From: Modestobacter sp. VKM Ac-2982
Lineage (GTDB): Bacteria; Actinomycetota; Actinomycetes; Mycobacteriales; Geodermatophilaceae
DNA length: 64,000 nt
Reading direction: 5' to 3'
NCBI RefSeq assembly: GCF_026967935.1
Contig: NZ_JAPVBL010000002.1
Location: forward strand, 574,969-638,968
Shown here: one piece after another, positions 23,698 through 52,585 of the stretch
Layout: the number at the start of each line of letters is the position of its first letter
How positions within the stretch are numbered: the first letter of the stretch is position 1
Notes under the pieces: model-generated
Told to the model about the DNA's origin: nothing
Database searches by the model: none
What the model saw: the letters and a program-made list of their open reading frames with translations, nothing else
Translations under genes and position numbers: made by a program

Positions 23698-23817
23698 GCA
23701 CCGCTCCTTCTTGAGCCGCCCTAGACTTTGTCGGTCGACCCCGACGCGCAGCAGCGCCATCACCGTGCGGGCGTGGAAGTCGGGTGCGGCCGTCATAGCT
23801 GCTCGGCATGATCCGCG

Positions 23818-24021
23818 CATTCCCGCCCGCCGGAGCCATCGCCGCCGGACTACTGCGGCGGCTGCGACCTCGATCGGCCGCTGTATCGACTGGAGGGAGC
23901 CGCCGGACACCATGTGCACCGCTGCCTCGAGTGCTTACGCTCCGCCTTCGCCGGTGAGCTGATCGATCGGCTGCACCGGGAGCGGAACGAAGCCCGCAAC
24001 GAGCACGGGAGATGTGGGTGA
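23818..24021 (+). pseudogene. Small zinc-ribbon gene without a start codon
   Basis: Codons from about 23818 to TGA 24019-24021 encode DYCGGCDLDRPLYRLEGAAG and HHVHRCLECLRSAFAGELID: two Cys pairs with ~20 residues between, a plausible zinc ribbon. A TGA immediately upstream and no ATG/GTG in the frame indicate loss of the 5' end. The stop overlaps the start of the next small gene. Confidence 0.45.
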
Positions 24022-24185
24022 CCAGTGGGCCTCCGTGGCTACGGAGCCGGCCCGAGCTGCAGCCGCCGCCCGGCTGGCTGACAGCTCGAGCGGAGCAGCT
24101 GCGACCGATCCGTGGCAACGTCCACGAGGCGATCTTCTCGCCGCCGCTGCCAACGCAGGAGCCGCGGCGAGTCGGCCCGCCGTGA
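24018..24185 (+). CDS. Small hypothetical protein (55 aa)
   Basis: GTG 24018 overlaps the preceding stop by GTGA, so it was translationally coupled to the zinc-ribbon gene. The product (TSGPPWLRSRPELQPPPGWL ... IRGNVHEAIFSPP) is Pro-rich with one short hydrophobic patch. No family recognised. Confidence 0.4.
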   Translation: MTSGPPWLRSRPELQPPPGWLTARAEQLRPIRGNVHEAIFSPPLPTQEPRRVGPP

Positions 24186-24245
24186 CCTCGGCAGGGAGTG
24201 TTGGCCTGGGTGCCTAGATCGGGTCAGTCCGGCACAGTGGGAGCC

Positions 24246-24668
24246 ATGACGGTCACCGGTGGAAGTGCGGGTGGGGCCCAGCGGCTGGCCGCGCACCGGG
24301 CTCGTCTGCTGGCCACCGAGGTGTTCACCTACGACACCCTGCAGCGGCTGCGCGGTGACCGGCAGGCCTCCAGCACGCGCACCTGGGTCGCGCGCACGTG
24401 CGCCGCCCGTGAGCTGTTCACCCTCACTCACGACGGGCAGACGATCGTGCCCGCGTTCCAGTTCGCCGCCGACAAGTCGCTGCGCCCGGAGCTGCGGCCG
24501 CTGCTCGAGGCGCTGGCCGTCGGCGGGGTCGACGGCTGGCAGCTGTGGACATGGCTGACCTCGCCGAGCGGCCTGCTCTCCGGTGGGGTGCCCCACGAGG
24601 TGGTGCGGACGCAGCCGAAGCGTGCCCTGCGCGCCGCGCAGCGGTTCTCCACCCCGAACGCGGCTTGA
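24246..24668 (+). CDS. MbcA/ParS/Xre-type (DUF2384-like) antitoxin-like protein
   Basis: 140 residues from ATG 24246. The first half is helical (LLATEVFTYDTLQRLRGDRQ). The second half ends with LWTWLTSPSGLLSGGVPHEV followed by VRTQPKRALRAAQRF, the 'LxGxxPxxll' arrangement of the toxin-binding domain of MbcA/ParS/Xre antitoxins. In those systems the partner is a RES-domain toxin, which is not seen next to this gene. It may be an orphan antitoxin, or the resemblance may be to a related regulatory fold. Confidence 0.5.
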   Translation: MTVTGGSAGGAQRLAAHRARLLATEVFTYDTLQRLRGDRQASSTRTWVARTCAARELFTLTHDGQTIVPAFQFAADKSLRPELRPLLEALAVGGVDGWQLWTWLTSPSGLLSGGVPHEVVRTQPKRALRAAQRFSTPNAA

Positions 24669-24744
24669 CCGGTCCGCTGTGGCGGTCGGTGGCCACCGAC
24701 CGAACCCGTCGTCTGGCTCCTGTCGGTGTGGGTGGGAGGCGAGG

Positions 24745-25038
24745 TCAGCGCTTGAGGTGGCGGTACACCGAGGGGCGGGCGCAGCCGGCGGCACGGGCCA
24801 CGTCGGCCAGTGTGTGGCCGGCAGTCGCGGCTTCGCGGATCAGCGTCGACCAGCGGTCGTTCACAGCCCGGTAGCGATCCCAGGCCGCCGGGTGCCCGGC
24901 GGACCCGAGCCCGTGCTCAGCGGTTAGGTCAGCGATCCGCCGGCGGGCTGCCCGCCGGGCCGCGGCGGCCTTGCGGAGCTCGGTCAGCAACCGAGGCCGC
25001 TGGTCGGCGGCCACGCCCGCACCGTAGCCGCAGTCCAT
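24745..25038 (-). CDS. Small HTH protein (resolvase-type tail)
   Basis: 97 residues from ATG 25038. The last 25 residues, AGHTLADVARAAGCARPSVY and RHLKR, form a Hin/resolvase-like HTH; the preceding part is helical (LLTELRKAAAARRAARRRIA). There is no catalytic serine domain, so it is a DNA-binding accessory protein rather than a recombinase. It converges with the antitoxin-like gene. Confidence 0.55.
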   Translation of the reverse strand: MDCGYGAGVAADQRPRLLTELRKAAAARRAARRRIADLTAEHGLGSAGHPAAWDRYRAVNDRWSTLIREAATAGHTLADVARAAGCARPSVYRHLKR

Positions 25039-25048
25039 GAGGTGTCGG

Positions 25049-25303
25049 TCAGTCGAGCGTGCGGAGCCGTGTGCCCGGGTGCCAGCCGAGCTCGGCCCCG
25101 TCGAACAACGTTCCGTAGTACATGGTGGCCGGGCCGAGCCAGGCACCCTCCTCTGTCTGCAGTCGGCCCCACAGCCAACCCACGACCTTGTCCTCGGTTG
25201 CAAGCGCCACCGGCCGTGGTGGCGACACGTGGGACGCGTGCGGCCGGGCGAGCGCGGCCTGCAGTTGTTCGGCGAGCCGTTCATCTGCCGTCGGCGTCCA
25301 CAC
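25049..25303 (-). CDS. Small hypothetical protein (84 aa)
   Basis: ATG 25303; product begins MWTPTADERLAEQLQAALAR and contains KVVGWLWGRLQTEEGAWLGP. Mixed fold, no recognised domain. It overlaps the end of the upstream minus-strand frame by 23 bases and precedes the HTH gene by 10 bases, consistent with a small operon. Confidence 0.4.
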   Translation of the reverse strand: MWTPTADERLAEQLQAALARPHASHVSPPRPVALATEDKVVGWLWGRLQTEEGAWLGPATMYYGTLFDGAELGWHPGTRLRTLD

Positions 25304-25592
25304 GCTCCGAACCGTAAGTGCGGTCGCCGAGCGACACTGAAGTCGTTCCGTACGTGTGTTCGACGAAGGGGGTGTTGCCGGCTCGGCAGTACTTGCCGTG
25401 GCTGGCCCGGAGCATCGGCAACGCCTCTGGGTGAAGTTCGACGTCTGCGCTGTCTGCAGAGGCGGCCGTGACGTCGGCCTCTGACCGTAGGGGGGCGACT
25501 GGTGTCGCGCCCTGCTGGCCCCGTGAGCGGGGATTTGCGGCAGAGGATGCGTAGAAGTCGGTCGCGGCTAGTTGTGCCACAGCCCGCGGCAC
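25281..25592 (-). CDS. Small hypothetical protein (103 aa)
   Basis: Reads ELHPEALPMLRASHGKYCRA and later VEHTYGTTSVSLGDRTYGSE. The last half looks coding; the first ~45 residues look weaker, so the true start may be internal. No family recognised. Confidence 0.3.
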   Translation of the reverse strand: MPRAVAQLAATDFYASSAANPRSRGQQGATPVAPLRSEADVTAASADSADVELHPEALPMLRASHGKYCRAGNTPFVEHTYGTTSVSLGDRTYGSERVDADGR

Positions 25593-25730
25593 AACCTGTC
25601 CAGCACCCCGTTGGACGGGTGCGTTGCGGCCGGGAACTGGCGGCTATCTGACATGTACCGTCGGTGCAGCGACCGCGGCGTCGGGAACCCGTACCTCGCT
25701 TCGGGGTGCCCCTGTGGCTAGTTTGACCCG

Positions 25731-26345
25731 ATGGTGGAGCCGGCCAGACGGTATAACGTGCCCTACCGGTACGGAGACGCCGCAGCTATTCAAGCCATGT
25801 CGTCGGTTGCGGCTCCATTGCTCGCGAGCGGCGCCCTGGTCTTCATCGGCCTCGTGGTGAAGTCCGTGCGTTATCCGGGGCTGACCCTTTTGATCATGCT
25901 GGTCGCCCTGCTTGTACTCGTGACGGCTGTTCAGTGCGGGTTTTGGGCCCGTCAGTTCGCATCCACTCCGCAGGAGATCGAGCAGTGGTGGCCCGACATG
26001 CCCACCAAGATGCGCAATGAACGGGCGCGCGCCGACCAGTGGCAGGACCGCGCGAGCCATGACATGTGGGCCAACCGCGCCCGATGGGCGTACGGAGTAG
26101 GCATCATCTTGCTGTGGTTCGGCGTCGCGGTGGCCCTCATGCCTGCTGCCGATGCCGCGCAGCCAGCGCTTCGGTGGTTGGCCGCAGCGGTTGGGATCCT
26201 GGCAGGTATGGGAGAGGCCTTATGGCTTGCTGGAGCTCACGGCCGCGGACCTCGGTGGCTACTGCGGTGGCTATCCGGCCCAGCGGTGTCTCCGCCGCCT
26301 GAACTGCCGGCCACGGACCCACCTCCGGACGCTTCATCCGCTTGA
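25731..26345 (+). CDS. Integral membrane protein, four predicted helices
   Basis: 204 residues from ATG 25731. Hydrophobic segments: AAPLLASGALVFIGLVVKSV (about 26-45), LTLLIMLVALLVLVTAVQCG (about 51-70), ARWAYGVGIILLWFGVAVAL (about 117-136) and ALRWLAAAVGILAGMGEALW (about 146-165). An amphipathic, charged loop (PTKMRNERARADQWQDRASH) lies between helices 2 and 3, and a Pro-rich tail ends the protein. No family recognised. Confidence 0.65.
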   Translation: MVEPARRYNVPYRYGDAAAIQAMSSVAAPLLASGALVFIGLVVKSVRYPGLTLLIMLVALLVLVTAVQCGFWARQFASTPQEIEQWWPDMPTKMRNERARADQWQDRASHDMWANRARWAYGVGIILLWFGVAVALMPAADAAQPALRWLAAAVGILAGMGEALWLAGAHGRGPRWLLRWLSGPAVSPPPELPATDPPPDASSA

Positions 26346-26448
26346 CCAGGAACCCATGCTGCGGAGGACGCTCCTGGTCCTTCCCGACCGAGGCTAGGAG
26401 TTAGGGCAGCCGGGGAGGTGTTGGGAGCCACGAGTTCCGCAGTGGGGG

Positions 26449-26513
26449 CATCGTCCCCCTGGCCATCCTGGCGGCCCCGTGGGCTCCGGGGGCGGCGGGC
26501 CAGGGGGACGATG
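26449..26513. terminator. Perfect 16-bp inverted repeat between convergent genes
   Basis: CATCGTCCCCCTGGCC (26449-26464) and GGCCAGGGGGACGATG (26498-26513) are perfect complements with a 33-base loop. It sits about 100 bases after the membrane-protein gene and upstream of the end of the convergent gene at 26756. No T-run, as is common for GC-rich actinobacterial hairpin terminators; a protein-binding site is the alternative. The remaining ~240 bases up to 26756 show no gene. Confidence 0.55.
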
Positions 26514-26755
26514 GTCAAGAAATGTCGTCATCTCACTTTTCCCTCCGTCGGTTTCAACTTGTCACGTTGCGGCGCCCAGCCATAGAGGTCATCTGTGCAG
26601 TCAGCTTGACGACAGGAGCGGCGCCATCTTCCGGACAACACACGACCGTCAATGGCGTCCCTTCGTTCCACACGGACCGATCATCTCCGGAGCCGTCTCC
26701 CGAGTAGCAACTTCTGGCCGTTGTGCGTCCTTCCCTGTTGGAATGCGGGTAGTCA

Positions 26756-27190
26756 TCAGGCGTCCGGCGTCGCGAGCAGCCGCAGCTGCAGCCAGCCGCC
26801 TTCCACCGCCTCGACTCGGGCGCGTGACCAGGCGGCGCGGCTTGTGCCGGCGAACGCCTCCGCGCCGATGGACGGCACCGTGGCGGGCATCCTCGCCAGG
26901 ACGACGCCGGCCTCGTCCGACTCGAAGTTCAGATCGGCAGCGATCAGCACGCCCAAGACATCGACGCGTACGCGCCGGTCCGGGTTCTCGCCGGCGATGT
27001 CTAGGACGCGGACTACCAGCGGCTCTTCCTCGTCCCCGCCGATCAGTACCGCGTCAGGGAAGACCACCGACGGGTCCGCCGCCTCGTCGAGGAACACCCA
27101 CGGGCCCACCTCGTCGACCTCCTGGGGGTGTACACCGGGCAGGTCGATGTGCACGGGGGGCGGCGGGCTGTCCACGGACCAAATCCTCAC
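26756..27190 (-). CDS. Hypothetical protein, 144 aa
   Basis: ATG 27190. Product starts MRIWSVDSPPPPVHIDLPGV and contains beta-rich stretches (EEEPLVVRVLDIAGE; RVRVDVLGVLIAADL). No signal peptide, no membrane helix, no recognised family. It is divergent from the repeat-containing DUF2442 gene. Confidence 0.5.
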   Translation of the reverse strand: MRIWSVDSPPPPVHIDLPGVHPQEVDEVGPWVFLDEAADPSVVFPDAVLIGGDEEEPLVVRVLDIAGENPDRRVRVDVLGVLIAADLNFESDEAGVVLARMPATVPSIGAEAFAGTSRAAWSRARVEAVEGGWLQLRLLATPDA

Positions 27191-27280
27191 TCACCGCTCT
27201 GGCCAATGGTTCGGTATGTGCCGTCGATCCCCGGTGGTCCAGTTGGCGTTCCTATCGGTGGTCAGCCGTACGGTGCGGCC

Positions 27281-28927
27281 GTGGACCCCACAGGACCGGG
27301 CATCAGCGAGACGGGCGCCGAGACAAGACTGACCCGTGAGCAGGTCCGCTGGCTGCTACGCGCGCACCTGGTCGCCGGTCACGTCGTCGCCGACCCTGAC
27401 GGCACTCGGGCTCTGGCCCGGGAGAACCTGCGCCGGACGCGCGCGGTCGATCCGCGGGCCGCGGTGTGGCTCGACCGGCTCGACCAGTGGGCAGCGCTGC
27501 TCGACGGCCCCCTGCTCGACCTGCTTGCCGTGCTGACCTCACCCTCCCCGCGGTCGCGGGAGCTCCGGCAGAACATGCCGTTCGCCGGGGTGCTCTCCGA
27601 GGAGGAACGCCAGCGGGTGGAGCGGACGCTGCGCGCGCTCCTGGGCGACCTGCCGCCGCTACCGGAGGTCTGTCACCGCTGGCCGCTCTGCCCATGCGAC
27701 TGCCCCGCGCCGGGCTGCCGGGACATCAGAGCCTGGCAGGCGAGGCTAACCAAGAGCGACAGCCCGCAGGCGCTGGACGAGGAGCTCGACGCTGAGCTGA
27801 TCCGGCACAGGGCCGCCTCAGACAACGGACACCGGACCGAGCTCGACGAGGTCATCACCACACTCGGCTACGACCGGGCCCAGCGGGAGGCCGAGGACCC
27901 CTTGGCGGGAGCGGCTGTGACCGGGCACGACGACCATCTGACCCGCGATCAGGTCCGCTCGCTACTGCTCGGCTACGGGGTCGCCAGCCGCGTCGCCGCC
28001 GACCCCGCGGGTGCGCGGGCATTGGCCTGGGAGAACTTGCGCCGGATGCGGCAAAGCGTGGCACGCGGTACCACGCTGCCCTGGTTCGACGAGTGGGAAC
28101 GGCTGCTCGACGGCCCGCTGCTCGAGCTGCTCGAGGCGCTGACTTCACCGTCCCCGCTGTCGCGCGAGCTCCGGCAGAACACCCCGTTCGCGGGCGTGCT
28201 CTCCGAGCACGAGCGGCAGCGAGTGCGGGAGGTGCTCCGGCACTTGGACGACGCCGGCGACGTCGCGCTGATCCGGGCGAGGGGCACGACCAACTCCGGG
28301 CAGCGCGTCGACCTCGACAAGGTCATCACCACACTCGGCTACAACCGGGCCGAACTCGAGGCCGAGCTGGATGCCGAATCCGGCACCGGTGACGCCTCCA
28401 GGTCCACAGAGACGGGCGAGCAGTTCGTCGACATCACCGGCGTCCGCGTGCTCGCTGGCTACATGCTCCAGCTGACCTGGGCCGACGGTGCGGTGACGAG
28501 GATCAAGGCCGAGCCGTACCTGCACGGCCCCGCCCTTGGGCCGCTGCGGGACCCGGCGGTGTTCGCCACGGTCACCGTCGACCCCGACGCGGGCACCGTG
28601 GTCTGGCCGAACGGTGCGGACATTTCACCCGTGGAGCTCCGCCGGGCCGGCCGGCCGGTCAGCGCGGCAACACCGGCCGAGCCGACCGCCAGCCGAGATG
28701 AGGTGCTCGCTGCCCGTGACCGACTGCGGCGGCTGGCCGCCGACCACCGGATCAGCCGGCCGCGGGTCGACGTCATCGGCACCGTCGTCGTCACGTTGCC
28801 CGCCGACGACCCCGGCTACCGGTCGCTGACCCACTTCGCCGCGGCGGCCGCCGAGGTGGTTGGCGGGTGGGTCAACGTCGTCGCCGACGACGCCCCGGCG
28901 GCAGCCACGGACACCACGCCGCTGTGA
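27281..28927 (+). CDS. DUF2442-containing protein with duplicated N-terminal module
   Basis: 548 residues from GTG 27281; ATG 27206 is in frame and would add 25 low-complexity residues. Two homologous ~150-residue modules begin LTREQVRWLLRAHLVAGHVV and LTRDQVRSLLLGYGVASRVA, each containing ENLRR, LLDGPLL, LTSPSP.SRELRQN.PFAGVL and ending in VITTLGY(D/N)RA. Between the modules is a Cys cluster (CHRWPLCPCDCPAPGC). A DUF2442 domain follows (DITGVRVLAGYMLQLTWADG ... VVWPNGADISPVELRR), a small domain often found beside DUF4160 or toxin-antitoxin-like genes. The ~75 C-terminal residues are unassigned. DUF2442 is normally a stand-alone ~80-residue protein. Confidence 0.65.
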   Translation: MDPTGPGISETGAETRLTREQVRWLLRAHLVAGHVVADPDGTRALARENLRRTRAVDPRAAVWLDRLDQWAALLDGPLLDLLAVLTSPSPRSRELRQNMPFAGVLSEEERQRVERTLRALLGDLPPLPEVCHRWPLCPCDCPAPGCRDIRAWQARLTKSDSPQALDEELDAELIRHRAASDNGHRTELDEVITTLGYDRAQREAEDPLAGAAVTGHDDHLTRDQVRSLLLGYGVASRVAADPAGARALAWENLRRMRQSVARGTTLPWFDEWERLLDGPLLELLEALTSPSPLSRELRQNTPFAGVLSEHERQRVREVLRHLDDAGDVALIRARGTTNSGQRVDLDKVITTLGYNRAELEAELDAESGTGDASRSTETGEQFVDITGVRVLAGYMLQLTWADGAVTRIKAEPYLHGPALGPLRDPAVFATVTVDPDAGTVVWPNGADISPVELRRAGRPVSAATPAEPTASRDEVLAARDRLRRLAADHRISRPRVDVIGTVVVTLPADDPGYRSLTHFAAAAAEVVGGWVNVVADDAPAAATDTTPL

Positions 28928-28946
28928 ATGCGAAGGAGCACACCTG

Positions 28947-29285
28947 ATGACCGCCGTCACCCGACTGCACCGGGCCGCCGGTCCGGTGACGCTGGCCGAC
29001 GCGTCCCGCCGGTTCCCGCGCCGGGACGCGTTCGAGCCGACCACCCGGCTGGCCTACGGCCGCACCCAGTTCGCCGGTAGCGCGCGCTCGGGTACGACGG
29101 AGGCCGGCGCAGTACAGCAGCAGCTCGAAACCTTCGTCGTCACCGAGTACCACAGCGGCCGCTCGTTGCGGGAGATCGCTGAACTCGTTGACCGCTCGCA
29201 GACGGCGGTTTGTCGAGTGTTGGACAAGCACTCCGTGCCGAGACGGCCCATCGGTGCGTCGCGGCTCTCCGACGTGCCCGACTGA
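28947..29285 (+). CDS. HTH protein with basic tail
   Basis: 112 residues from ATG 28947, with GAAGGAG 9 bases upstream. The C-terminal half, YHSGRSLREIAELVDRSQTA then VCRVLDKHSVPRRPIGA, is a resolvase/Whi-like HTH with a basic tail, similar to the fragment at 7604-7756. It starts 19 bases after the DUF2442 gene and is probably in its operon, perhaps as its DNA-binding regulator. Confidence 0.6.
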   Translation: MTAVTRLHRAAGPVTLADASRRFPRRDAFEPTTRLAYGRTQFAGSARSGTTEAGAVQQQLETFVVTEYHSGRSLREIAELVDRSQTAVCRVLDKHSVPRRPIGASRLSDVPD

Positions 29286-29424
29286 CCTCCCACCGACCGG
29301 CCCTGCTCGGGCGCTACCGCCGTCTGCAAGAACCCACAGCGGGCGTTGTACAGAGAGAGACCCATCCCGTCCCGGTAGGCGGCCAACGCCCACAGTCGCC
29401 CACACCCGCGCCTGTACGGAGAAA

Positions 29425-31281
29425 CTAGCTGTTCTTGCCGAGCAGCAGCTTGCGGGCCGCGTTGTTCTTCGGCGCATTGACCTCCCGCCGGTAGTCCATC
29501 AGCACGTTGACCGACTTGTGGTCGGTCACCTCCTGGACCTCGGCGATCGACAGCTTGTCGTTGCGGAGTCCCTCGGTGACGAAGCCGCTGCGGAGGGAGT
29601 GCGCGCCGTAGGTGGCCCGCTCGCCCGGCTGCGGCTTGCGCATCAGCCCGGCCGCGATTGCGAGCTTCTGGACGACGTCGTTGATGCTCTCGCCGGAGAG
29701 CCTGACTGGCTGGCCGTCCTCGTCCACCTTGAGCGTGCCGGCGCCGGTTAGCGCGACGAACACCGGCTCGTCGTTGCGCGGCTGGCGGCCGAGTGCGGCG
29801 CTCAGCTGTGCCTTCCACGCGCGCAGCGCGGTGGCCGGGCAGGCCTTGTCCGAGTCGGGCCCTGCCTCTGGCAGCCACTTGACCCGACCGCGGCCCTCCT
29901 GGTCGGTCTTGCTGCGTCGCCAGATGACGGTGCAGCCGTCCTCGCCGTAGTCGGTGACGTCGCCCCAGTTCAGCGCGGAAAGGTTGGACCGGCGCGCGGC
30001 GGTGTAGAAGCCAGCGAGCAGTAGCGCCCGGTCGCGGGCGGCCACTAGCGGAGTCATCGGGCACTCCGCGGCCAGCAGTCTGGCGAGCAGCCGGTCGGGG
30101 AGGGTGGGCAACGCGTCCCAGCCGCCGGCCGTTGCGGCGGCGCTGTGTACGGCCTGGTGTAGCGCCTGCCGGGTCATCGCGTCGCCGATGCTGCGGCTCG
30201 GCGTGCGCGCCGGCTCACCCTTCTTCGGCCGGCGCGAGGTGCGGAGCGCCGGGTGGGAGAACACCCGGTCGAGCTTGACCGACATGGTCCGCAGCTCGCG
30301 CAACGCGTGGACCAGGCACAGGTCGGGGTTGCGGTGTGCGGGCAGGACGACAACGGTCGGCTGGCCGTGCCGGTGGGCGGGGGCGAGCACGAGGGTGACC
30401 TGCTCAGGCTCCAGAGTGACGTCAGGCCAGCCGAGCCGGGCGAGCTGCCCGGCGGTGGCGCCGGTGCGGGCCCGGGTCAGCACCGCCGCTCGGTTGCGGG
30501 TGGCGGTGTATCGGGCACCGTTGGCCGCGGACAGGCAGGCATTCACCCGGTCGAGGTCGAGGGCCGCTTTGCGGTAGGCGGGCGCGACGCGCAGCCGGCG
30601 CCGGATGCCGCGGACCAACTCCTGGATCCCTGCGTTGTCGCCGGGGCGCGGGAGACCGATGAACTCGGCGGCCTTGTTGAGGGCGGCGACGCGGAGGCCG
30701 ATGGTGCCGGCGCTGACCGCGGGCATCGGGCCGCCGTCGGCATCCCGCACGACCTCGCCCTCGTCGTCCCAGACGAACGCGTAGTCGAGCAGGTGGTCTG
30801 CCACTCTCTCGGCGTGGAACGGGAGCGCCGAGACGCCCTCGGCCTTGCACCAGTCCCGCCAGGCGCGCACGTGGCCGCCGTAGCTGATCAGCGTGGCGTC
30901 GGCCCATGCGCTGGCGCGTAGATCGTCGAGCATCCGAGCCCGGTTGAGCCGCCGAGCGCGTTCCTCGGCGGTGCCGTCGCCGAGGTCGGTGAACTCGGCT
31001 GTCCGGGCCGGCACCAGTTTCTTGGTCTTCTCGTCGAGGAACGCGTCGAGGACCCGGTCGACGGTCAGGTCGTCGAACGCCGGCTGTACGACGGCGTCAT
31101 CGACCAGCTCAGCCTCGACGATCTCGGCGGCGTTCTCGGGCGTGACGTCGGCGGCCTCGGCGTCCTCGCGCAGTAGCAGGGCCAGAGCCCGGGTGGTCGG
31201 CGTGGCCGCGGTCGGCAGGGCGCGCGGGGGAGCGGACCGGCTCGGGCGACGGACACGGAACGACTGGGGACTGCTGGACAA
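29425..31281 (-). CDS. Tyrosine recombinase with an extra, degenerate catalytic half
   Basis: 618 residues. A core-binding domain lies at about 120-240 (SAWADATLISYGGHVRAWRD). Next comes RNRAAVLTRARTGATAGQLA followed by RLGWPDV, which parallels the first part of a catalytic domain but is followed by no HxxR. A full catalytic domain then starts RDRALLLAGFYTAARRSNLS (Arg), with SKTDQEGRGRVKW, AHSLRSGF (HxxR) and EVTDHKSVNVLMDYRRE (His/Lys and Tyr near 600). Most family members are 300-450 residues, so half of the domain seems duplicated. A dense inverted-repeat region lies directly upstream (31330-31429). Confidence 0.8.
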   Translation of the reverse strand: MSSSPQSFRVRRPSRSAPPRALPTAATPTTRALALLLREDAEAADVTPENAAEIVEAELVDDAVVQPAFDDLTVDRVLDAFLDEKTKKLVPARTAEFTDLGDGTAEERARRLNRARMLDDLRASAWADATLISYGGHVRAWRDWCKAEGVSALPFHAERVADHLLDYAFVWDDEGEVVRDADGGPMPAVSAGTIGLRVAALNKAAEFIGLPRPGDNAGIQELVRGIRRRLRVAPAYRKAALDLDRVNACLSAANGARYTATRNRAAVLTRARTGATAGQLARLGWPDVTLEPEQVTLVLAPAHRHGQPTVVVLPAHRNPDLCLVHALRELRTMSVKLDRVFSHPALRTSRRPKKGEPARTPSRSIGDAMTRQALHQAVHSAAATAGGWDALPTLPDRLLARLLAAECPMTPLVAARDRALLLAGFYTAARRSNLSALNWGDVTDYGEDGCTVIWRRSKTDQEGRGRVKWLPEAGPDSDKACPATALRAWKAQLSAALGRQPRNDEPVFVALTGAGTLKVDEDGQPVRLSGESINDVVQKLAIAAGLMRKPQPGERATYGAHSLRSGFVTEGLRNDKLSIAEVQEVTDHKSVNVLMDYRREVNAPKNNAARKLLLGKNS

Positions 31282-31329
31282 CGGGACCTCCAGAGGCCGG
31301 TCGGGGCGGGTGCCCCGGCGTCGGGCTGA

Positions 31330-31382
31330 CGCTGACGGATCAGTGCCGGCAAGCCCGTGACCTGCACTCGAATCCGTCAGCG
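31330..31382. repeat. 11-bp inverted repeat upstream of the recombinase gene
   Basis: CGCTGACGGAT (31330-31340) is the exact complement of ATCCGTCAGCG (31372-31382). It is immediately adjacent to the larger inverted repeat at 31382-31429; together they fill the recombinase upstream region. Confidence 0.6.
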
Positions 31383-31429
31383 TCCAGGCGTAGTCCCGCG
31401 AAGAGGAACTATCGGGACTACGGCTGGAC
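31382..31429. repeat. 17-bp inverted repeat (one mismatch), 14-base spacer: possible recombinase core site
   Basis: GTCCAGGCGTAGTCCCG (31382-31398) and CGGGACTACGGCTGGAC (31413-31429) pair at 16 of 17 positions. The spacer is CGAAGAGGAACTAT. It lies 100-150 bases from the start of the tyrosine recombinase gene. No T-run follows, and it is upstream of genes on both sides, so a terminator is unlikely; a recombination or operator site is favoured. Confidence 0.6.
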
Positions 31430-31660
31430 AGTCAGAAACCGTCCGTAGCCGGACCTGCGACGCCAGGGTTCGTATCACCCGCCTTGCCTCTCCTGTTCCT
31501 TGCGCCGCCCGGCTCTGCCACGCGCCACGTCCGGTGGTCGGATTGCTGGCGGTCGGCGACACGAGGCTCCCTGGAGCGAGCCCGGGGGGACTGATGGGCA
31601 GTCGCCACGGTCGGCGTCACATTCCGGTCACGGACCGTCGTGGACGGGCGTGCTCCGTCG

Positions 31661-32293
31661 ATGCCTCTTGTCGACGGAACAGAGACTCCGGACGTGGGTC
31701 GGCGGCGGGTGTGTGCGGGGTGCCGGCAGGAGTTGGTGCACTCGGGAACAGGCCGACCGCGGGAGTACTGCGGGCAGCGGTGCAGGCAGGCAACGTGGGC
31801 ACGACGCCGCCGCGTCGAGCAGCGACGCCAGACGGTGCTCGACCGGTCGCAGTGGTGGACTCCGCCGGAGCTCCGCAAGCGGGTGCTCGACACCTGGGAC
31901 ATCGGGCTGGATGCGGCGGCCTGCCACGAGAGCGCTCTGGTCGACCAGTGGCTCGGTCCGACGAGCCCGGTGGAGGAGTGGCGTGATGCCCGCACGGTGA
32001 TCTGGGCCGACCTCGTCCAGCCGGGGCAGACGGTGTACTGCAACCCGCCCTATTTCCCATCATCCCTGCTCGGGCAGTTCCTCGAGCGGTGCGTCGACAC
32101 GGCAGTGCGCGGGATCGGGGTCACCGGGCTGATACCGGCCTCGCCGTGCACCGGCTGGTGGATCCGGTGGGTCGCCGAAGGCGGTGCGGAGGTCGACTTT
32201 CTTCCCGGCCGGCTCGCCTACGACGGCCCGTTCAGCTCCGGCGGCGTGGCCCCCTTCGGGGCGGCATTGGTGCACTGGCCCGCACAGACGTGA
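31661..32293 (+). CDS. Phage-type DNA N6-adenine methyltransferase (Dam-like) with N-terminal zinc-binding motif
   Basis: 210 residues from ATG 31661. Residues 15-50 contain CAGCRQELVHSGTGRPREYC and then CGQRC, a small Cys4-type knuckle. The catalytic part has SQWWTPPELRKRV and GLDAAACHESALVDQWLGP (SAM and target binding) and the YCNPPYFPSS motif (NPPY), which defines the D12/phage N6-adenine methyltransferase family. The size is normal for phage enzymes. No restriction partner is adjacent, so it is probably an orphan, phage-derived modification enzyme. Confidence 0.8.
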   Translation: MPLVDGTETPDVGRRRVCAGCRQELVHSGTGRPREYCGQRCRQATWARRRRVEQRRQTVLDRSQWWTPPELRKRVLDTWDIGLDAAACHESALVDQWLGPTSPVEEWRDARTVIWADLVQPGQTVYCNPPYFPSSLLGQFLERCVDTAVRGIGVTGLIPASPCTGWWIRWVAEGGAEVDFLPGRLAYDGPFSSGGVAPFGAALVHWPAQT

Positions 32294-40716: not shown

Positions 40717-41823
40717 GTGTCCCTCCTTTCCAGGCTCGCCACGAAGATCGACAAGCTGAGCACCGAGCTGGCCGCCACGGAGGCGCTTGGGCTCATCCTG
40801 GCCAGCCCAGCGGCTGCCATGTCAGTGACCGCCGTGCTCCGCGCGGTCGCGCCGAACCTGCCGGCGCCGCTGCGGTACACGACCCAGGCCGGGGACGACG
40901 ACGGTCGGCCCGACATCATCGGTCGCGACGACCACCGGGAGGTGCTCCACGTTGAGGGGAAGTTCTGGGCCGGCCTGACCGATGCCCAGGCCCGCGGCGG
41001 CTACCTCGAGCGCATGCGTCGGCAGCATGCCGAGCACGCTCCCGAGCACCCGCATGTCGGCGCGCTGGTGTTCATCGTGCCCCCGCGGCGCACCGCGACC
41101 CTGATGGATGAACTGGAGCGGCGCTACGGCCTCACCACACCCGAGTCGAACGGCGGGTGGTGGTCGGCGCAGACCGTCGACGGGATGACGGTGGCGGTGA
41201 CGAGCTGGGACGAACTGCTGGGTCGGCTGGCCGGTATGGCGAAGCAGGACGTCGCCGAGGACGCCCGTCAGCTGCTGGACCTCGTGAAGCAGGTGGACCA
41301 CGGCAGCTTCGTCCCCTGGTCCGCGGAGCAGCTCACCGACCAGGACGGTCCGCGACGTCTTCTGACGCTGGCATCCATGGTCGAGGCGGTCCACAGGAGG
41401 CTCCTCAGCACCGACGTCGCGACTTCGGTCTCCACACGGACAACCATCACGCAGGGCGGTCCGCTCTCATTCGGGAAGCGGATGCGACTGGGGGGCGTGG
41501 TGGTGACCCTTCGGGTGCACCTTGAGCTGTGGGCGCGGCACGGGCGGTCACCGCTGTGGCTGGCGTTCCGGGCGAGCGGGGCACCGGCCGCGCGGCGCGT
41601 CTTCGCCGAGCGGCTCGTCGAGGCCGACTACTGGATCGCGGTGGCCGTCCCGCTGCCCGAGGGGCAGGTCGGGGACGACGTCCGGGAGCACCTCGTGGCT
41701 TGGTTGACCGACGCCGGCCGGCAGCTGGAGGCGGCGCTCGAGGCGGGCGTCCCCCTCGGCGATGAGACAGCAGAGGAGGGGGACGAGGACCCCGGCGAGG
41801 ACGTCGGCGAAGCCCCCGTCTGA
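40717..41823 (+). CDS. Putative PD-(D/E)XK-fold nuclease-like protein
   Basis: 368 residues from GTG 40717. Residues 62-92 contain DGRPDIIGRDDHREVLHVEG then KFWAGLTDAQ: PD (65-66), a 13-residue gap, E-G-K (80-82) and Gln 91, an almost ideal PD-(D/E)XK motif I-IV order. After it comes an alpha/beta region (HPHVGALVFIVPPRRTATLM; MTVAVTSWDELLGRLAGMAK) and an acidic tail (ETAEEGDEDPGEDVGEAPV). A defensive or repair nuclease is likely by fold. It stands alone; its convergent neighbour is a large unknown DNA-binding-like protein. Confidence 0.65.
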   Translation: MSLLSRLATKIDKLSTELAATEALGLILASPAAAMSVTAVLRAVAPNLPAPLRYTTQAGDDDGRPDIIGRDDHREVLHVEGKFWAGLTDAQARGGYLERMRRQHAEHAPEHPHVGALVFIVPPRRTATLMDELERRYGLTTPESNGGWWSAQTVDGMTVAVTSWDELLGRLAGMAKQDVAEDARQLLDLVKQVDHGSFVPWSAEQLTDQDGPRRLLTLASMVEAVHRRLLSTDVATSVSTRTTITQGGPLSFGKRMRLGGVVVTLRVHLELWARHGRSPLWLAFRASGAPAARRVFAERLVEADYWIAVAVPLPEGQVGDDVREHLVAWLTDAGRQLEAALEAGVPLGDETAEEGDEDPGEDVGEAPV

Positions 41824-43994: not shown

Positions 43995-45686
43995 TTAGGC
44001 AGACCAGAGCTCGTGTGTCGGGAGATTCCTCTCGGTTCCGTCCTCGCTGTCGTAGTCCGGAGCGCCGAGCCGCGTGATCAGCATGTCCCTCGCCACCGTT
44101 CGGTACTGCTGCGGCGCCGTCTCGGTACGTCCATCGCGTGGTGCCTCCGCTACTGGTTCGGCCCCCAAGCCACGCCACAGAGCGAGGACGGCCTTTTCGG
44201 TGGCCACGGCGTCGGTGTGGGTCAGCCCGGTCCACACGGCGACGAGCTGGTATCCGCGGCGGCACAGATTGTCGATGCGGGCCGGCTGGCTGGCGATACC
44301 CACCTTCACCGCGCCTGCGCGCGAGTGAACGACGAGGTACAGGCGGTCGAAAGCCACGACGCATTCGCCGCAGGGCCCCTGGCCCTGCTGGAGGCTGCCT
44401 GGTGATGGCGCGCACCTGTGCTCGTTCTTACAGATGAGAGGCACCGGTGTGTGGCGGTTGATGTAGGTCGCCCCGGGGGCGAGCTGCGCCCCGAGGGCCG
44501 CTACTCGCGCCAGGAACTCGGTCTCGGCGGCCGCGGGATCGTTGCGAGCGCACTTCTGGCACGGGCCCTGGCCTTGCTGCAGGTGGGCCGGACGAGGAGC
44601 GCAGTCGTGTCCCTTGGCGCAGATCAACCGCACCGGGGTCAGGGTGCCGACGTAGGAGGCGCCGGGGGCCAGCCGGGCACCGAAGGCCGTCACTCTCTCG
44701 AGGAACTCCGTCTTGGCGGCCGAGGGGTCGTTGCGGGCGCACTTCTGGCACGGGCCCTGGCCTTGCTGCAGGTGGGCCGGACGAGGAGCGCAGTCGTGTC
44801 CCTCGGCGCAGATCAACCGCACCGGGGTTCGGTTGTTCACGTAGCAGGCGCCGGGGGCCAGCCGGGCACCGAATCGCTTCACGCGCTTGAGGAAGTCGGC
44901 CTTGGCGACCTGGGAATCTCTCTGGACGCAGGTCGGGCAGGGCCCTTGGCGCTTGAGGCTGGCCGGCCGGGGGGCGCAGCGGTGGCCCCGCCGGCAGATC
45001 AGCTGAACCGGCGTCCGATTGTTGACGTATTTAGCGCCTGGGGCGAGCGTCGCCTTCACCTCGTACACCCGGGCGAGAAACCGGCCCTCGGCGGTCTTCC
45101 GGTCCCTGTCAGCGCAGACAGGGCAGGGCCCCTGGCGCTTCAGACTCGGCGGCAGCGGGGCGCAGCGGTGGCCCCGTCGGCAGATCAGCTGGACCGGGGT
45201 TCGGCTGTTGACGTAGCGGGCGCCGGGGGCGAGCTTCGCCCCCAACTCGTGCACCCGGGCGAGGAACCGGCCCTCGGCGGTCTTCGGGTCCTTACCGCCG
45301 CAGACCACGCAAGGTCCTTGGCGCTTGAGGCTGGCTGGTCGGGGGGCGCACGGATGGCCCAGCTGGCAGATCAGCTTGACCGGGGTGTCGACGTTGATGA
45401 AGCGGGCGCCGGGCGCGAGTTCTGCGCCCCACCTGTCCACTAGGGCGAGGAACGCGGCCTCCACCTTCTCGGCCTGTGCAGGTCGGGCACAGGCCCACCG
45501 AGGGCAGACGCCGCCGCCGCGCAGCACCCCCTCCGGCAGCGGCGCGCAGTTGTGTCCGTTGCGGCAGGTCAGGGGCACCGGGGTCTTGGTGTTGATGTAG
45601 GCCGACCCCGGCTCCGGTACCGCCCCGAGTTCACCGACTCGGGCCCAGAAGGCGGCGGCCGCCTGACGGGCGGAGCGCTTGCGCAT
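43995..45686 (-). CDS. Seven tandem zinc-ribbon units fused to a GIY-YIG-like nuclease domain
   Basis: 563 residues. Seven ~60-residue units follow the pattern FLARVxxLGAxLAPGAxYVN ... TPVxLICxxGHxCAPRPxxL ... GPCxxC, i.e. C-x3-H-x-C and C-x2-C in each, a repeated zinc ribbon like the 'Zn-ribbon' arrays that wrap DNA. The C-terminal ~120 residues are GIY-YIG-like: DRLYLVVHSRAGAVKVGIAS (LYLVV 449-453, KVGI 462-465), Arg 471 and Glu 497. The frame is open two codons upstream into a TAG that separates it from two more units at 45693-46094. ATG 45686 has AGAGGAG only 1 base upstream, an unusual spacing. Probable site-specific nuclease; unproven. Confidence 0.7.
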   Translation of the reverse strand: MRKRSARQAAAAFWARVGELGAVPEPGSAYINTKTPVPLTCRNGHNCAPLPEGVLRGGGVCPRWACARPAQAEKVEAAFLALVDRWGAELAPGARFINVDTPVKLICQLGHPCAPRPASLKRQGPCVVCGGKDPKTAEGRFLARVHELGAKLAPGARYVNSRTPVQLICRRGHRCAPLPPSLKRQGPCPVCADRDRKTAEGRFLARVYEVKATLAPGAKYVNNRTPVQLICRRGHRCAPRPASLKRQGPCPTCVQRDSQVAKADFLKRVKRFGARLAPGACYVNNRTPVRLICAEGHDCAPRPAHLQQGQGPCQKCARNDPSAAKTEFLERVTAFGARLAPGASYVGTLTPVRLICAKGHDCAPRPAHLQQGQGPCQKCARNDPAAAETEFLARVAALGAQLAPGATYINRHTPVPLICKNEHRCAPSPGSLQQGQGPCGECVVAFDRLYLVVHSRAGAVKVGIASQPARIDNLCRRGYQLVAVWTGLTHTDAVATEKAVLALWRGLGAEPVAEAPRDGRTETAPQQYRTVARDMLITRLGAPDYDSEDGTERNLPTHELWSA

Positions 45687-45692
45687 GCTCCT

Positions 45693-46094
45693 CTACACCG
45701 CCTTCCGGCTGTCGGACCGGTTGCAGGCCAGGCACGGCCGCTGGCCCTGCTTCAGGCTGACCGGACGCGGCGCGCACTGGTGGCCCTGCTGGCAGATCAG
45801 CTGCACGGGGGTGTGGGCGTTGACGTAGCGGGCACCGGGTGCCAACTGCGCGTCGAAGGCGGCGACCCGGGCGAGGAATTTGGCCTCGGCGCTGCGCGGG
45901 CTCCTCCGGGCGCAGACCGGGCACAGCCCCTGGCCTTCCTTCAGGTCGATCGGACGCGGAGCGCAGCGGTGGCCCGCACGGCAGATCAGCTGCACCGGGG
46001 CGAGCGGGCCGGCCCACGTCGAGTTAGGGGCGGGGCGGGCTCCGAGTGCAGCGACTCGGGTCCAGAACTCCGCGGCCGTAGGGGAACTCGCCAT
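45693..46094 (-). CDS. Two further zinc-ribbon units, same frame as the downstream gene
   Basis: 133 residues from ATG 46094, with AGAAGGAG 8 bases upstream. Two units of the same repeat: FWTRVAALGARPAPNSTWAG ... LICRAGHRCAPRP ... LCPVC and FLARVAAFDAQLAPGARYVN ... LICQQGHQCAPRP ... PCLAC. It ends at a TAG (45693-45695) that is in frame with, and nine bases before, the start of the next gene. The simplest reading is that one nine-unit gene (43995-46094) was split by a nonsense mutation; readthrough or reinitiation would restore a full product. Confidence 0.7.
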   Translation of the reverse strand: MASSPTAAEFWTRVAALGARPAPNSTWAGPLAPVQLICRAGHRCAPRPIDLKEGQGLCPVCARRSPRSAEAKFLARVAAFDAQLAPGARYVNAHTPVQLICQQGHQCAPRPVSLKQGQRPCLACNRSDSRKAV

Positions 46095-47163: not shown

Positions 47164-47385
47164 TCAGGCTCCGTGTGCCGCTTCGGGGGGCTCGGCCTCC
47201 GTCATCCGTCTTTCCCTGGCGCGGCGGTTCCGCACGTCGAGCTCGTACAGGTGGAGCTCCCGGTCCAACGCGACCAGGAACTCTTCTCCGTCGATGTAGC
47301 CCTGGTCGAGCCCTTCCTCGACGATGCGGCGCGCTCGCTGCATGCCGTCGACGACACCATCTTCGAACGCGGCGAGCCCACTCAC
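47164..47385 (-). CDS. Small hypothetical protein (73 aa)
   Basis: ATG 47385 overlaps the stop of the ParB-like gene by four bases, so it is co-translated. Acidic, helical product (FEDGVVDGMQRARRIVEEGL; DQGYIDGEEFLVALDRELHL). No recognised domain; probably a partner of the ParB-like protein. Confidence 0.6.
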   Translation of the reverse strand: MSGLAAFEDGVVDGMQRARRIVEEGLDQGYIDGEEFLVALDRELHLYELDVRNRRARERRMTEAEPPEAAHGA

Positions 47386-48224
47386 GCCCTGAGTATGCCG
47401 TCACTCGCAGGCGGTGGGTGCTGCCGCGCCGGGGCGGACGGCCCGGTGCCCCTTCCCCCGCCCAACGGCGTGGCTGAACCGGCCGGACTTCTGCGGCGGT
47501 GGCGGAGGACAGCGGCGCGGCCGGCGTGCAACAGGCGCGAGATCGCTCGCCTCACCAGCTTTAGGACTCGACGCGGCAGGCGGAGACGACGTTGCTTCGC
47601 CACGTAGGTGGGCGTGGGCAGCGTGCGTCGCACGGCAGCCACCGTTGTGGGCGAGAGGCCAACGCGGCGCGCGACTTCGGCGTTAGACAGGTTTGGGTTC
47701 AGTGAGAGCGTGCGCGCGGCTTCGGCGCGCCGTTGCGAACGGTCCATCGGATGACGGGAGCCGTCACGACCGATGCGAGCGTCCAGGTGCGGCGGCGCCG
47801 CACCTGGACGCTTCTGCTGGGCGCGTGCGCGGCGGATCGTGGCCTCGTGGACGCCGGTCAGCTCTGCGATCCGACGGTTGCTCCACTCCGGGTGGAGCTC
47901 GAGAATGCGTCGAGCGGCCCCCGCCCGTTGGCGGGAGGACAGCGGGAGTCCGTGGCTGGCATTGTTCGCCACCGCGCGGAGCCAGCCGCTCGTCTCGTCC
48001 TCGGCCCACTCGACGGGCAGTTCCCCTCGGCCTGCCGCCTTCGCGGCTAGCACACGCATGTGCCCATCAAGCACTCGCCTCGTCGGGCGGTGAACCAGAA
48101 TGGGCGGGACGCGGTCGATGACCGCCGTCAAGATGCGGACGTGCTCTTCACTCGGTCGACGCAGTGCCGCAGACAGGTCGAGGGTGTCGAGCTCGACCGT
48201 GGACGTCAGTGACCTTTGGATCAT
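47382..48224 (-). CDS. ParB/StrR-like DNA-binding protein
   Basis: 280 residues from ATG 48224. The N-terminal ~90 residues, VRILTAVIDRVPPILVHRPT and RRVLDGHMRVLAAKAAGRGE, are a ParB/sulfiredoxin-fold domain (GxxR region changed to GHMR). An HTH follows (LSSRQRAGAARRILELHPEW; SNRRIAELTGVHEATIRRAR) and a second HTH (LSNAEVARRVGLSPTTVAAV). The end is basic and low complexity. This is the architecture of StrR-like transcription regulators as well as partition proteins; without a ParA nearby, a regulator is more likely. Confidence 0.7.
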   Translation of the reverse strand: MIQRSLTSTVELDTLDLSAALRRPSEEHVRILTAVIDRVPPILVHRPTRRVLDGHMRVLAAKAAGRGELPVEWAEDETSGWLRAVANNASHGLPLSSRQRAGAARRILELHPEWSNRRIAELTGVHEATIRRARAQQKRPGAAPPHLDARIGRDGSRHPMDRSQRRAEAARTLSLNPNLSNAEVARRVGLSPTTVAAVRRTLPTPTYVAKQRRLRLPRRVLKLVRRAISRLLHAGRAAVLRHRRRSPAGSATPLGGGRGTGPSAPARQHPPPASDGILRA

Positions 48225-50306: not shown

Positions 50307-51617
50307 CTACCTGCCCGCCTCGTCGGCGTCGTGGTCGGCGGGCGGGGAGAACAGGTCGCGCTTGAGCTGAGCCAGCTGCTCCATGCGCTCCTTGTAGTAA
50401 TGCTCGCTGGTCGCGCCGCCGTCGTGGGCGAGTTGGAGCTTGGCCGCGGCCTCGCCGCCGGCTTCGTAGAACAGGCGGCCGCTGGTGTGCCGGATGTCGT
50501 GTGGCCGTAGGCCTCGGGCGTCGAAGCCGGGGTGGTAGCGGCGGATTCGAGTGAACAGTGACTCGAACCGCTTGCGGGTCAGGGGCCGCACCCGGCGGCT
50601 GACGAAGAAGCCGTCGGCGTCGAAGGTGTCGACCGGCCGGTAGTAGAAGACCGGATCCTCCGGGGAGGGGGCCGGGATGCCGGTGCGGCGCAGCTCCTCG
50701 GGGGCGTCTGGCGGGGCGGGGACGCGGGGGCCGCGCTCGAGCGCATGGGCGACCAGCGCGTCGAGGTGCTCCGGGGTCGAAGGTCGGGTGCGGTAAGTGT
50801 CGCGCTTCTCGTCCCAGTAGGTGACGGTGCACTCGTCGCGGTTGACCCCGCGGCAGCGCAGAGCGAGCACCCCGCCACGGCGGGTGGCCTGGATGAGCAT
50901 GTGCCGCAAAATGAGCCCGTCCAGCGCCGGATCGTCCCCGGTCGACGTCGCCAGAGCGTGCAGGGTCAGGAAGTCCGGCACGGCGAGGCTGCGGGCGACG
51001 GCCTCCTGGCGGTTGGGCATCCGCACGTCCTTGGCCACGTTCGCCGGCACCACGCCGTCGCGGCGCATCTCTTCCCACAGCCACCGGGTGGCCTGAATCA
51101 TTGCCTCTTGGGCGCCGCGGCCGTCGTGGTTGTGCAGCGCCCGGCCGGCGGCCGTCCGCTTGGCGTTGCGCACCGCGGTGCGCTGCATCGCGTGCCGGCG
51201 AGCCCACCAGGCGGCCTCGCTCAGGTGGTGGCGGGTGATGGACCGCACGTCCTCGCCACCCAGGGTGGTCATGCGGGCGGCGCAGTCGATGTCCGACTCC
51301 GGCGCGCAGCCCTCCCCGTGACCGCCGGCGGTGCACGGGCAGGAGCCGGTCGCGCAGGCCAGGCAGACGCACGGGCAGGTGTCGGGCAGCCCCACAGCCA
51401 GCCGGTGCAGATACAGCGCCCACGTGCCGTAGGTGCCCTTGTGGTCGCGGCGCAGCGCGGGCAGCCGCAGCTCCAGCTGCTCGGCCAGGGTGAGGCCGGG
51501 CGCGGCGCCGAGCAGGCCGGCCACGTCCACGCCGCGGCGGCGGGCCTCGGCGAGCAGCACGGCGAGTTGGTCGGTGAAGTCCTCGGGCGGGCCGGGGTGG
51601 CTGAGGGTTTCGGTCAT
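50307..51617 (-). CDS. Tyrosine recombinase next to tRNA-Leu (likely island integrase)
   Basis: 436 residues from ATG 51617. A Cys-rich insert (CPCVCLACATGSCPC) occurs in the N-terminal third. The core-binding region is AMIQATRWLWEEMRRDGVVP. The catalytic domain has LIQATRRGGVLALRCRGVNR (Arg), GLRPHDIRHTSGRLFYEAGG (HxxRH) and KLQLAHDGGATSEHYYKERM (His and Tyr). It lies one gene (51632-52402) away from the 3' end of tRNA-Leu(GAG), the usual place of an integrase at an occupied tRNA attachment site. It probably catalysed entry of the whole island to its left. Confidence 0.85.
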   Translation of the reverse strand: MTETLSHPGPPEDFTDQLAVLLAEARRRGVDVAGLLGAAPGLTLAEQLELRLPALRRDHKGTYGTWALYLHRLAVGLPDTCPCVCLACATGSCPCTAGGHGEGCAPESDIDCAARMTTLGGEDVRSITRHHLSEAAWWARRHAMQRTAVRNAKRTAAGRALHNHDGRGAQEAMIQATRWLWEEMRRDGVVPANVAKDVRMPNRQEAVARSLAVPDFLTLHALATSTGDDPALDGLILRHMLIQATRRGGVLALRCRGVNRDECTVTYWDEKRDTYRTRPSTPEHLDALVAHALERGPRVPAPPDAPEELRRTGIPAPSPEDPVFYYRPVDTFDADGFFVSRRVRPLTRKRFESLFTRIRRYHPGFDARGLRPHDIRHTSGRLFYEAGGEAAAKLQLAHDGGATSEHYYKERMEQLAQLKRDLFSPPADHDADEAGR

Positions 51618-52402: not shown

Positions 52403-52500
52403 GGCCGTAGCTGTGCCGGGCGTTTTGCCAGGTGCGCTCGGATTCGGCCGATTCGCGGCCTTCTCACCCGAAAGAGGGTGGGACGGCTCCCACGTAGAAG

Positions 52501-52585
52501 TGTCCGAGGGGGGACTTGAACCCCCACGCCCGATAAAGGGCACTAGCACCTCAAGCTAGCGCGTCTGCCATTCCGCCACCCGGAC
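52501..52585 (-). tRNA. tRNA-Leu (anticodon GAG)
   Basis: On the minus strand the 85-nt sequence starts GTCCGGGTGGCGGAATGGC and ends CCCCCTCGGACA. The acceptor stem is GTCCGGG/CTCGGAC (one G-U pair), the anticodon stem-loop is CTAGC-TTGAGGT-GCTAG giving anticodon GAG, a class II long variable arm is present, and the T-arm contains GGTTCAAGTCC. CCA is not encoded. The recombinase 0.9 kb downstream of its 3' end marks it as a likely integration target. Confidence 0.95.

Follow-up and report, generated by a model that had tools for sequence, protein, structure and literature searches.

A nine-unit zinc array and a GIY-YIG-like nuclease domain, divided between two same-frame ORFs in Modestobacter sp. 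VKM Ac-2982

The window is the 64,000-nucleotide stretch of the Modestobacter sp. VKM Ac-2982 genome that was analyzed as a whole. Two ORFs on its reverse strand share one reading frame, with a TAG at positions 45695-45693 between them (Table 1). An earlier note on this DNA, made from its letters alone, had described 2 + 7 zinc units in same-frame ORFs, and the count of nine units was confirmed. An AAGGAG sits 7 nt ahead of the ORF1 ATG. The ORF2 ATG (45686-45684) begins six bases past the TAG, and the AGGAG of ORF2 abuts the TAG, leaving 1 nt to the start codon. Neither sigma-70-type promoter-like sites nor terminator-like sites were found around the array gene. The array is also visible in the DNA as a 95-nt repeat present in eight copies that are 60-80% alike to the reference copy (threshold at least 60%). 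The repeat advances in steps of 186-189 nt with a single exception of 426 nt, which spans unit 3 and the junction.

Table 1. Features of the two-ORF locus and of its putative island anchor (positions in the window)
Feature	Position	Strand	Description
ORF1	45693..46094	(-)	133 aa, two zinc units, without nuclease domain; ATG 46094
ORF2	43995..45686	(-)	563 aa, seven zinc units and GIY-YIG-like domain
Zinc unit 1	45912..46067	(-)	ORF1
Zinc unit 2	45723..45878	(-)	ORF1
Junction	45663..45701	(-)	about 39 extra nt with TAG 45695-45693, AGGAG, and ATG 45686-45684; edges approximate, by eye
Zinc unit 3	45489..45650	(-)	divergent; C-x4-C
Zinc unit 4	45300..45452	(-)	ORF2
Zinc unit 5	45114..45266	(-)	ORF2
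Zinc unit 6	44928..45080	(-)	ORF2
Zinc unit 7	44739..44894	(-)	ORF2
Zinc unit 8	44550..44705	(-)	85% identical to unit 7
Zinc unit 9	44361..44516	(-)	ORF2
GIY-YIG-like nuclease domain	44052..44348	(-)	ORF2 residues ~447-545
Tyrosine integrase	50307..51617	(-)	Pfam Phage_integrase E 1e-4, below cut-off; adjoins tRNA-Leu
tRNA-Leu(gag)	52500..52585	(-)	probable island anchor

The zinc units are 51-54 residues long from a conserved F to the last Cys, and the F, C, H, C, and C of each unit are invariant (27 unit pairs). The distance from the last Cys of one unit to the first Cys of the next is 35-40 residues in all 46 spacings taken from 13 array pieces, being 38 or 39 in 39 of them, and the Cys-to-Cys pitch is 61-63 residues in 44 of 46 steps. 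The motif had been read as C-x3-H-x-C ... C-x2-C. Its C-x3-H ... C-x2-C ligands stand, but the Cys of 'H-x-C' does not hold as a family-wide ligand. This Cys is found in 16/16 units with the most frequent loop length in the subfamily of the window (16 of the 20 units counted) and in only 21/37 units of the second subfamily (37 of 39 counted), and it is therefore not a ligand of the whole family. The divergent unit 3 reads CPRWAC. For units 7 and 8, dN and dS have the same value (0.12).

A predicted model of two units (pLDDT 79.0, pTM 0.48) has a linker helix, small strands, a short helix at +10 to +14, and a CxxC preceding the next helix. Comparison of the model with viral predicted structures gave 134 matches at E ≤ 0.001, the best of which (2.4e-10) is a giant-virus 'restriction endonuclease'. 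The best 50 of the 134 include zinc-ribbon, treble-clef, CapR, homing endonuclease, and restriction enzyme proteins of phages and giant viruses. The top VIA-align match of the same model, a trypanosome mitoribosome assembly protein, reached Z 4.6, a result that excludes nothing according to the tool's own note. Pfam CapR (PF21817) scores the window protein at E 0.012 and 16.2 bits, below the 24.2 cut-off, and a related phage F88 protein (tblastn 8e-40) reaches CapR at 2.6e-9 and DUF4379 at 2.3e-7. The nuclease is thus preceded by tandem zinc units of the CapR/DUF723/DUF4379 type.

Seven residues of the C-terminal domain (Y450, K461, G463, R470, E497, G519, and E522 in ORF2 numbering) are invariant across 14 diverse C-termini. 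Glu497 had been named correctly in the earlier note; the arginine given there as Arg471 is R470, and E522 is a second invariant Glu that had been overlooked. ORF2 matches PHROG 681 'endonuclease' at 1.2e-41, with the best stretch at profile positions 261-432 in the repeat part, and phrog_559 'HNH endonuclease' at 1.3e-34. Searched by itself, the C-terminal stretch of 133 residues aligns to the distal end of phrog_681 (439-523) at 6.8e-4, in an order colinear with the repeat match. A Pfam scan of the window protein gave no match to GIY-YIG, T5orf172 (PF10544), or MUG113 (PF13455). T5orf172 or MUG113 appeared at E ≤ 1 in just 4 of 10 relatives scanned (0.0012-0.091), always below the Pfam cut-offs, and NCBIfam had nothing relevant for the window protein or seven relatives. 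The window protein is not assigned to the Pfam T5orf172, MUG113, or CapR models, whose curated cut-offs it does not reach.

The predicted model of unit 9 plus the nuclease domain, built from six sequences (pLDDT 83.7), has the topology two strands, helix, strand, long helix, strand, helix. Against viral predicted structures it gave 72 matches at E ≤ 0.001, led by an uncharacterized phage protein at 1.3e-7. Named proteins among the best 50 of the 72 are T5orf172 (1.4e-6), a Hef-like homing endonuclease (2.0e-6), CapR homology (7.0e-6), and the GIY-YIG nuclease family (5.1e-5), aligned over 159-200 columns with the 184-residue query; TM-scores in the best 50 of the 72 are modest at 0.34-0.61 of the query. 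Foldseek of the model against the PDB gave no hit below E 0.88, and sequence searches for relatives with solved structures gave chance-level matches only for the window protein and none for the phage F88 protein. The top six rows of VIA-align against solved structures are Slx1, a GIY-YIG nuclease, at Z 5.7-7.1, where Z 7.1 is middling by the tool's scale. Lower rows include 1yd6, which is labelled GIY-YIG, and 1zg2 and 1ywl, which presumably represent GIY-YIG families. Together, these models and the putative catalytic residues support a predicted GIY-YIG-superfamily fold for the C-terminus. A GIY-YIG search had been proposed as the test of this assignment. Pfam answered it with no match, but PHROG, the conserved residues, and the fold agree with the assignment, and the proposed pairing of a zinc-unit array with a GIY-YIG-type nuclease is supported by the PHROG matches, invariant residues, and predicted folds.

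This architecture has a precedent. Phage T5orf172 homing endonucleases are described in PMC10448857 as carrying CapR, DUF723, or DUF4379 zinc repeats like beads on a string; 200 of 229 have at least one such zinc domain, and the repeats recombine. Judging from that account, the window gene belongs to an already described kind in a new place. It has in common with the phage enzymes the N-terminal bead-like zinc units, the C-terminal GIY-YIG-superfamily domain, and modular recombining units (PMC10448857), and differs from them in its location on a putative Geodermatophilaceae chromosomal island, its scores below all Pfam cut-offs, and its division by a stop codon with additional linker sequence. 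The repeats and the C-terminal part of ORF2 both match PHROG 681, in order, whereas the window copy is actinobacterial and split. The phage-like plasmid CP108805.1 of Streptomyces sp. NBC_00873 (L006) encodes seven units with the same nuclease domain, and tblastn aligns it to 86% of ORF2 at 37% identity (E 4e-74). Its array is a single unbroken ORF with a pitch of 61-62, in contrast to the mostly 62-63 of the window. Odn (Gp88) of phage ICP1 is a T5orf172-type (GIY-YIG) nuclease that keeps the catalytic Arg and Glu and is aimed by a separate DNA-binding part, a RepA_N domain, in the description given by PMC8263062; the window nuclease has zinc units instead. A search of titles and abstract openings in the open-licence PMC literature, with preprints outside its scope, found no report of a recognition code or of an actinobacterial chromosomal array, and identified PMC10448857 as the one paper dealing with arrays of this type.

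Relatives of ORF2 were detected by tblastn (E ≤ 0.01) in 199 phage records, 43 plasmid records, 6 of 112 genomes of the family, and 7 of 394 sampled genomes of the class. Both genome counts include the window's own genome, and the class count includes one genome (G213) matched by the nuclease part only. This distribution argues that the ORF2 array is not a product of chance. A search of genome contigs with ORF2 alone gave no match, no close counterpart of the window's subfamily was found among viral contigs, and no neighbor genes were common to the window and its relatives among the matches listed. Between the two best-kept relatives, dN is well below dS (0.020/0.091 and 0.063/0.323).

Free-standing homing endonucleases are expected to be patchy and decaying in their occurrence. 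The five other family genomes, which include Geodermatophilaceae bacterium URHB0062 and Goekera deserti, hold one interrupted copy, three remnants, and one copy cut by a contig gap. The interrupted copy has a transposase gene inside it (IS3-like by eye) and an extra nuclease piece on another contig. One remnant retains two units but has changed frame and lost the second Glu, another consists of one unit and the first strand, and the third of a nuclease piece alone. The Goekera deserti array falls exactly on the Scaffold4_1/Scaffold4_2 break (L045 end, L044 start), and assembly may therefore truncate or drop such arrays.

One interrupted copy and three remnants in the family lend weight to the view that the Modestobacter locus is itself a decaying pseudogene, in which the array is broken between units 2 and 3, ORF2 is unmade or inactive, and the intactness of the sequence reflects recency. 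The 1-nt spacing between AGGAG and the ORF2 ATG points the same way. Nevertheless, all nine ligand sets and the seven invariant nuclease residues are intact, ORF2 has 563 open codons, and an ATG is available six bases after the stop. A pseudogene is a serious possibility here, if somewhat short of an even chance, and it is compatible with the homing-nuclease explanation developed below, since that explanation concerns the present or former identity of the gene.

The junction between the ORFs contains more than a stop codon. The distance from Cys to Cys across the TAG is 52 residues, compared with 35-40 in the 46 other spacings, which makes the linker 12-17 residues too long; the surplus is about 13 codons, or ~39 nt. 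The earlier note had taken the TAG for the only thing that separates the ORFs, a description that overlooks this surplus. Its suggestion that the stop may be a mutation is qualified by the 39 extra nt, which are more than a single base change. A simple nonsense mutation in a regular nine-unit gene is therefore rejected.

Comparison of homologues, recommended in the same note, showed that the stop is not conserved: no inter-unit stop occurs in the 14 further array genes compared, which give 15 open frames since a contig gap divides one of them. This sample leans to open frames because open frames were sought, and the remaining tblastn phage and plasmid records lie outside it. Two-unit broken pieces from G105 (L030) and Streptomyces bambusae (L046) were left out of the count, and one array (L035) loses frame within unit 6. 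The other proposal of the earlier note, regulated readthrough, is made unlikely by the same count. That the stop is a programmed readthrough site yielding a nine-unit nuclease would suit two ORFs in one frame, but no other array gene of the 14 has an inter-unit stop and the junction is longer than every other spacing, so that readthrough would yield an out-of-register array. Programmed readthrough is accordingly very improbable.

The split is unusual and most likely accidental, and the junction could have been made by insertion or by recombination of two copies. Two simple sources of the insert were rejected. A 30-nt probe allowing up to 3 mismatches finds only itself in the genome, which dismisses a copy from elsewhere, and alignment of the insert with the ORF1 leader as its duplicate is no better than chance, since 388 of 2000 shuffles equalled or exceeded it.

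Recombination of neighboring paralogues would make ORF2 a complete gene with unit 3 as its N-terminal unit and ORF1 the stump of another copy. A unit start of FW is limited in the window to units 1 and 3, and these units share 79% of 39 nt at the start, the highest value for any non-adjacent pair (next 72%). Linker-like sequence flanks the insert on both sides by eye, and inter-unit recombination is reported for such phage genes (PMC10448857). On the other hand, FW occurs in all six units of the relative G084 and may therefore be ancestral, and the likeness between the ORF1 leader and the junction does not rise above the chance level given by the shuffles. A fusion of this kind is a tentative proposal, possible but decidedly below even odds.

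ORF1 may also be viewed as a functional product that only binds DNA, a CapR-like repressor or competitor on part of the nuclease site, which would be strongly translated while little ORF2 is made by reinitiation. The ribosome-binding site of ORF1 is the better of the two, ORF2 starts six bases past the ORF1 stop, and CapR is a published precedent for a repressor homologous to array units (as presented in PMC10448857). Since the arrangement was observed in this genome alone, with no inter-unit stop in the 14 other array genes, such a role for ORF1 is quite unlikely. Reinitiation at the ATG six bases past the stop is plausible from the arrangement of the sequence, and because every invariant residue is kept, ORF2 with its seven units may be functional alone.

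A presence/absence site for the array gene was identified in viral contigs. The array gene precedes the large terminase gene in three Streptomyces-type viral contigs (L039, L040, and L049), with another small gene standing between the two in L049, and in L041, like L049, the array gene comes before a small gene. In L058, the contig of L040, the array gene (714-2048) is flanked by a small gene on one side and the large terminase gene on the other. The gene is absent at the same site of L059 (3428-3629), where the flanking small gene and terminase align; the distance between the aligned blocks is 1,669 bp in L058 versus 202 bp in L059. Three of 37 terminase loci have the array gene and 34 are without it; the three positives are the query contigs under new ids, and upstream sequence is short in several of the 34. 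For the copy in the window, no empty site was found. Decay in the Geodermatophilaceae and presence/absence beside the viral terminase gene fit the life cycle of a homing endonuclease.

The chromosomal setting of the array gene suggests an integrative island at tRNA-Leu. The block running from the integrase through the tRNA to core genes aligns at 77-93% identity with a congeneric genome (G021). A ResIII-type helicase is the next gene that the two genomes share, and its distance to the integrase is ~49.5 kb in the window (820-50335) versus ~1.06 kb in G021. No exact 16-mer repeat of the tRNA-Leu region was found elsewhere within the window, and the left end and att sites of the putative island were not found. 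Other genes in the window include a second integrase (29428-31281); a 368-residue protein (40717-41820) with a weak Vsr endonuclease match (E 0.013, below cut-off); a gene at 47382-48224 with several helix-turn-helix matches (best HTH_23, 2.5e-7) that is ParB-like by eye; a Mutator-family transposase in two adjoining pieces, apparently broken (903-1516); and DUF4238, DUF2442, and Dam-type methyltransferase matches at 22708-32290, which at a guess are defence cargo.

The preferred reading, given a probability of about 75%, is that ORF2 encodes a free-standing nuclease that resembles homing endonucleases of the phage 'zinc-finger array plus T5orf172/GIY-YIG' kind and is carried on a tRNA-Leu island, and that ORF1 is its detached front. 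This reading draws on the observed anatomy, homology, predicted folds, patchy and broken occurrence, and the one viral presence/absence site, from which we infer DNA binding, cutting, homing, and translation of ORF2. The seven treble-clef-like units would lie along DNA at a fixed pitch and place one GIY-YIG domain beside its target. A cut would then favor copying of the array gene or harm a competing element. ORF1 would be the nuclease-less front of the array, two units separated from the rest by a break observed in this genome alone, and ORF2 would probably be translated by the reinitiation described above.

Variation among units was used to consider how such an array might read DNA. The analysis covered 5 of the 9 window units, other loop lengths being dropped; 19 of 21 units were kept in the bacterial group and none were lost in the other two. 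As four-group means, the conserved positions P8, P10, G16, and H4 have synonymous differences in 42-61% of within-array pairs and amino-acid differences in 0-11%. Positions +11, +12, -7, -8, and +22 have amino-acid differences in 80-87% of pairs and synonymous differences in 4-16%, and are the most variable on the four-group average. Positions +11 and +12 fall on the predicted short helix behind P-x-P. Within the second subfamily, the variability profiles of bacterial and viral arrays have a rank correlation of 0.70. G084 correlates with either of these at 0.36-0.43. Pairs that include the five usable units of the window give 0.28-0.55, and these units correlate weakly with the more distant groups (0.28, p 0.13; 0.34, p 0.06). 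The pattern fits recognition positions, and ordinary surface drift would fit it nearly as well.

TALE-type readers are built from constant-length tandem units with few variable positions. The zinc arrays resemble them in constant unit length and possibly in having few variable positions, and no relation in sequence or fold is claimed. The earlier note had raised long, sequence-programmed DNA recognition, which is possible given the constant pitch and recurrent variable positions. A more specific proposal is that the 61-63-residue treble-clef unit is a DNA-reading module in which +11/+12 with -7/-8 would set specificity, unit order would spell a long site, and unit shuffling would retarget the nuclease; the split would then yield a two-unit reader of the first part of the site. 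In this detailed form the proposal is unlikely. Arrays of seven or more near-regular units joined to one nuclease are nonetheless a candidate modular DNA-reading scaffold besides TALEs and C2H2 fingers, and the near-constant pitch and known variable residues of the actinobacterial arrays make a recognition code directly testable by site selection.

A different combination was observed in G213. Its gene at L038:4110-5534 encodes a GIY-YIG-like domain with all seven invariant residues fused to eight unrelated-looking zinc modules of the form CxxDGC...ARGWCxxHYxRW (eight copies by eye), which have no relevant Pfam match. Here the nuclease domain is the same but the reading array has been exchanged.
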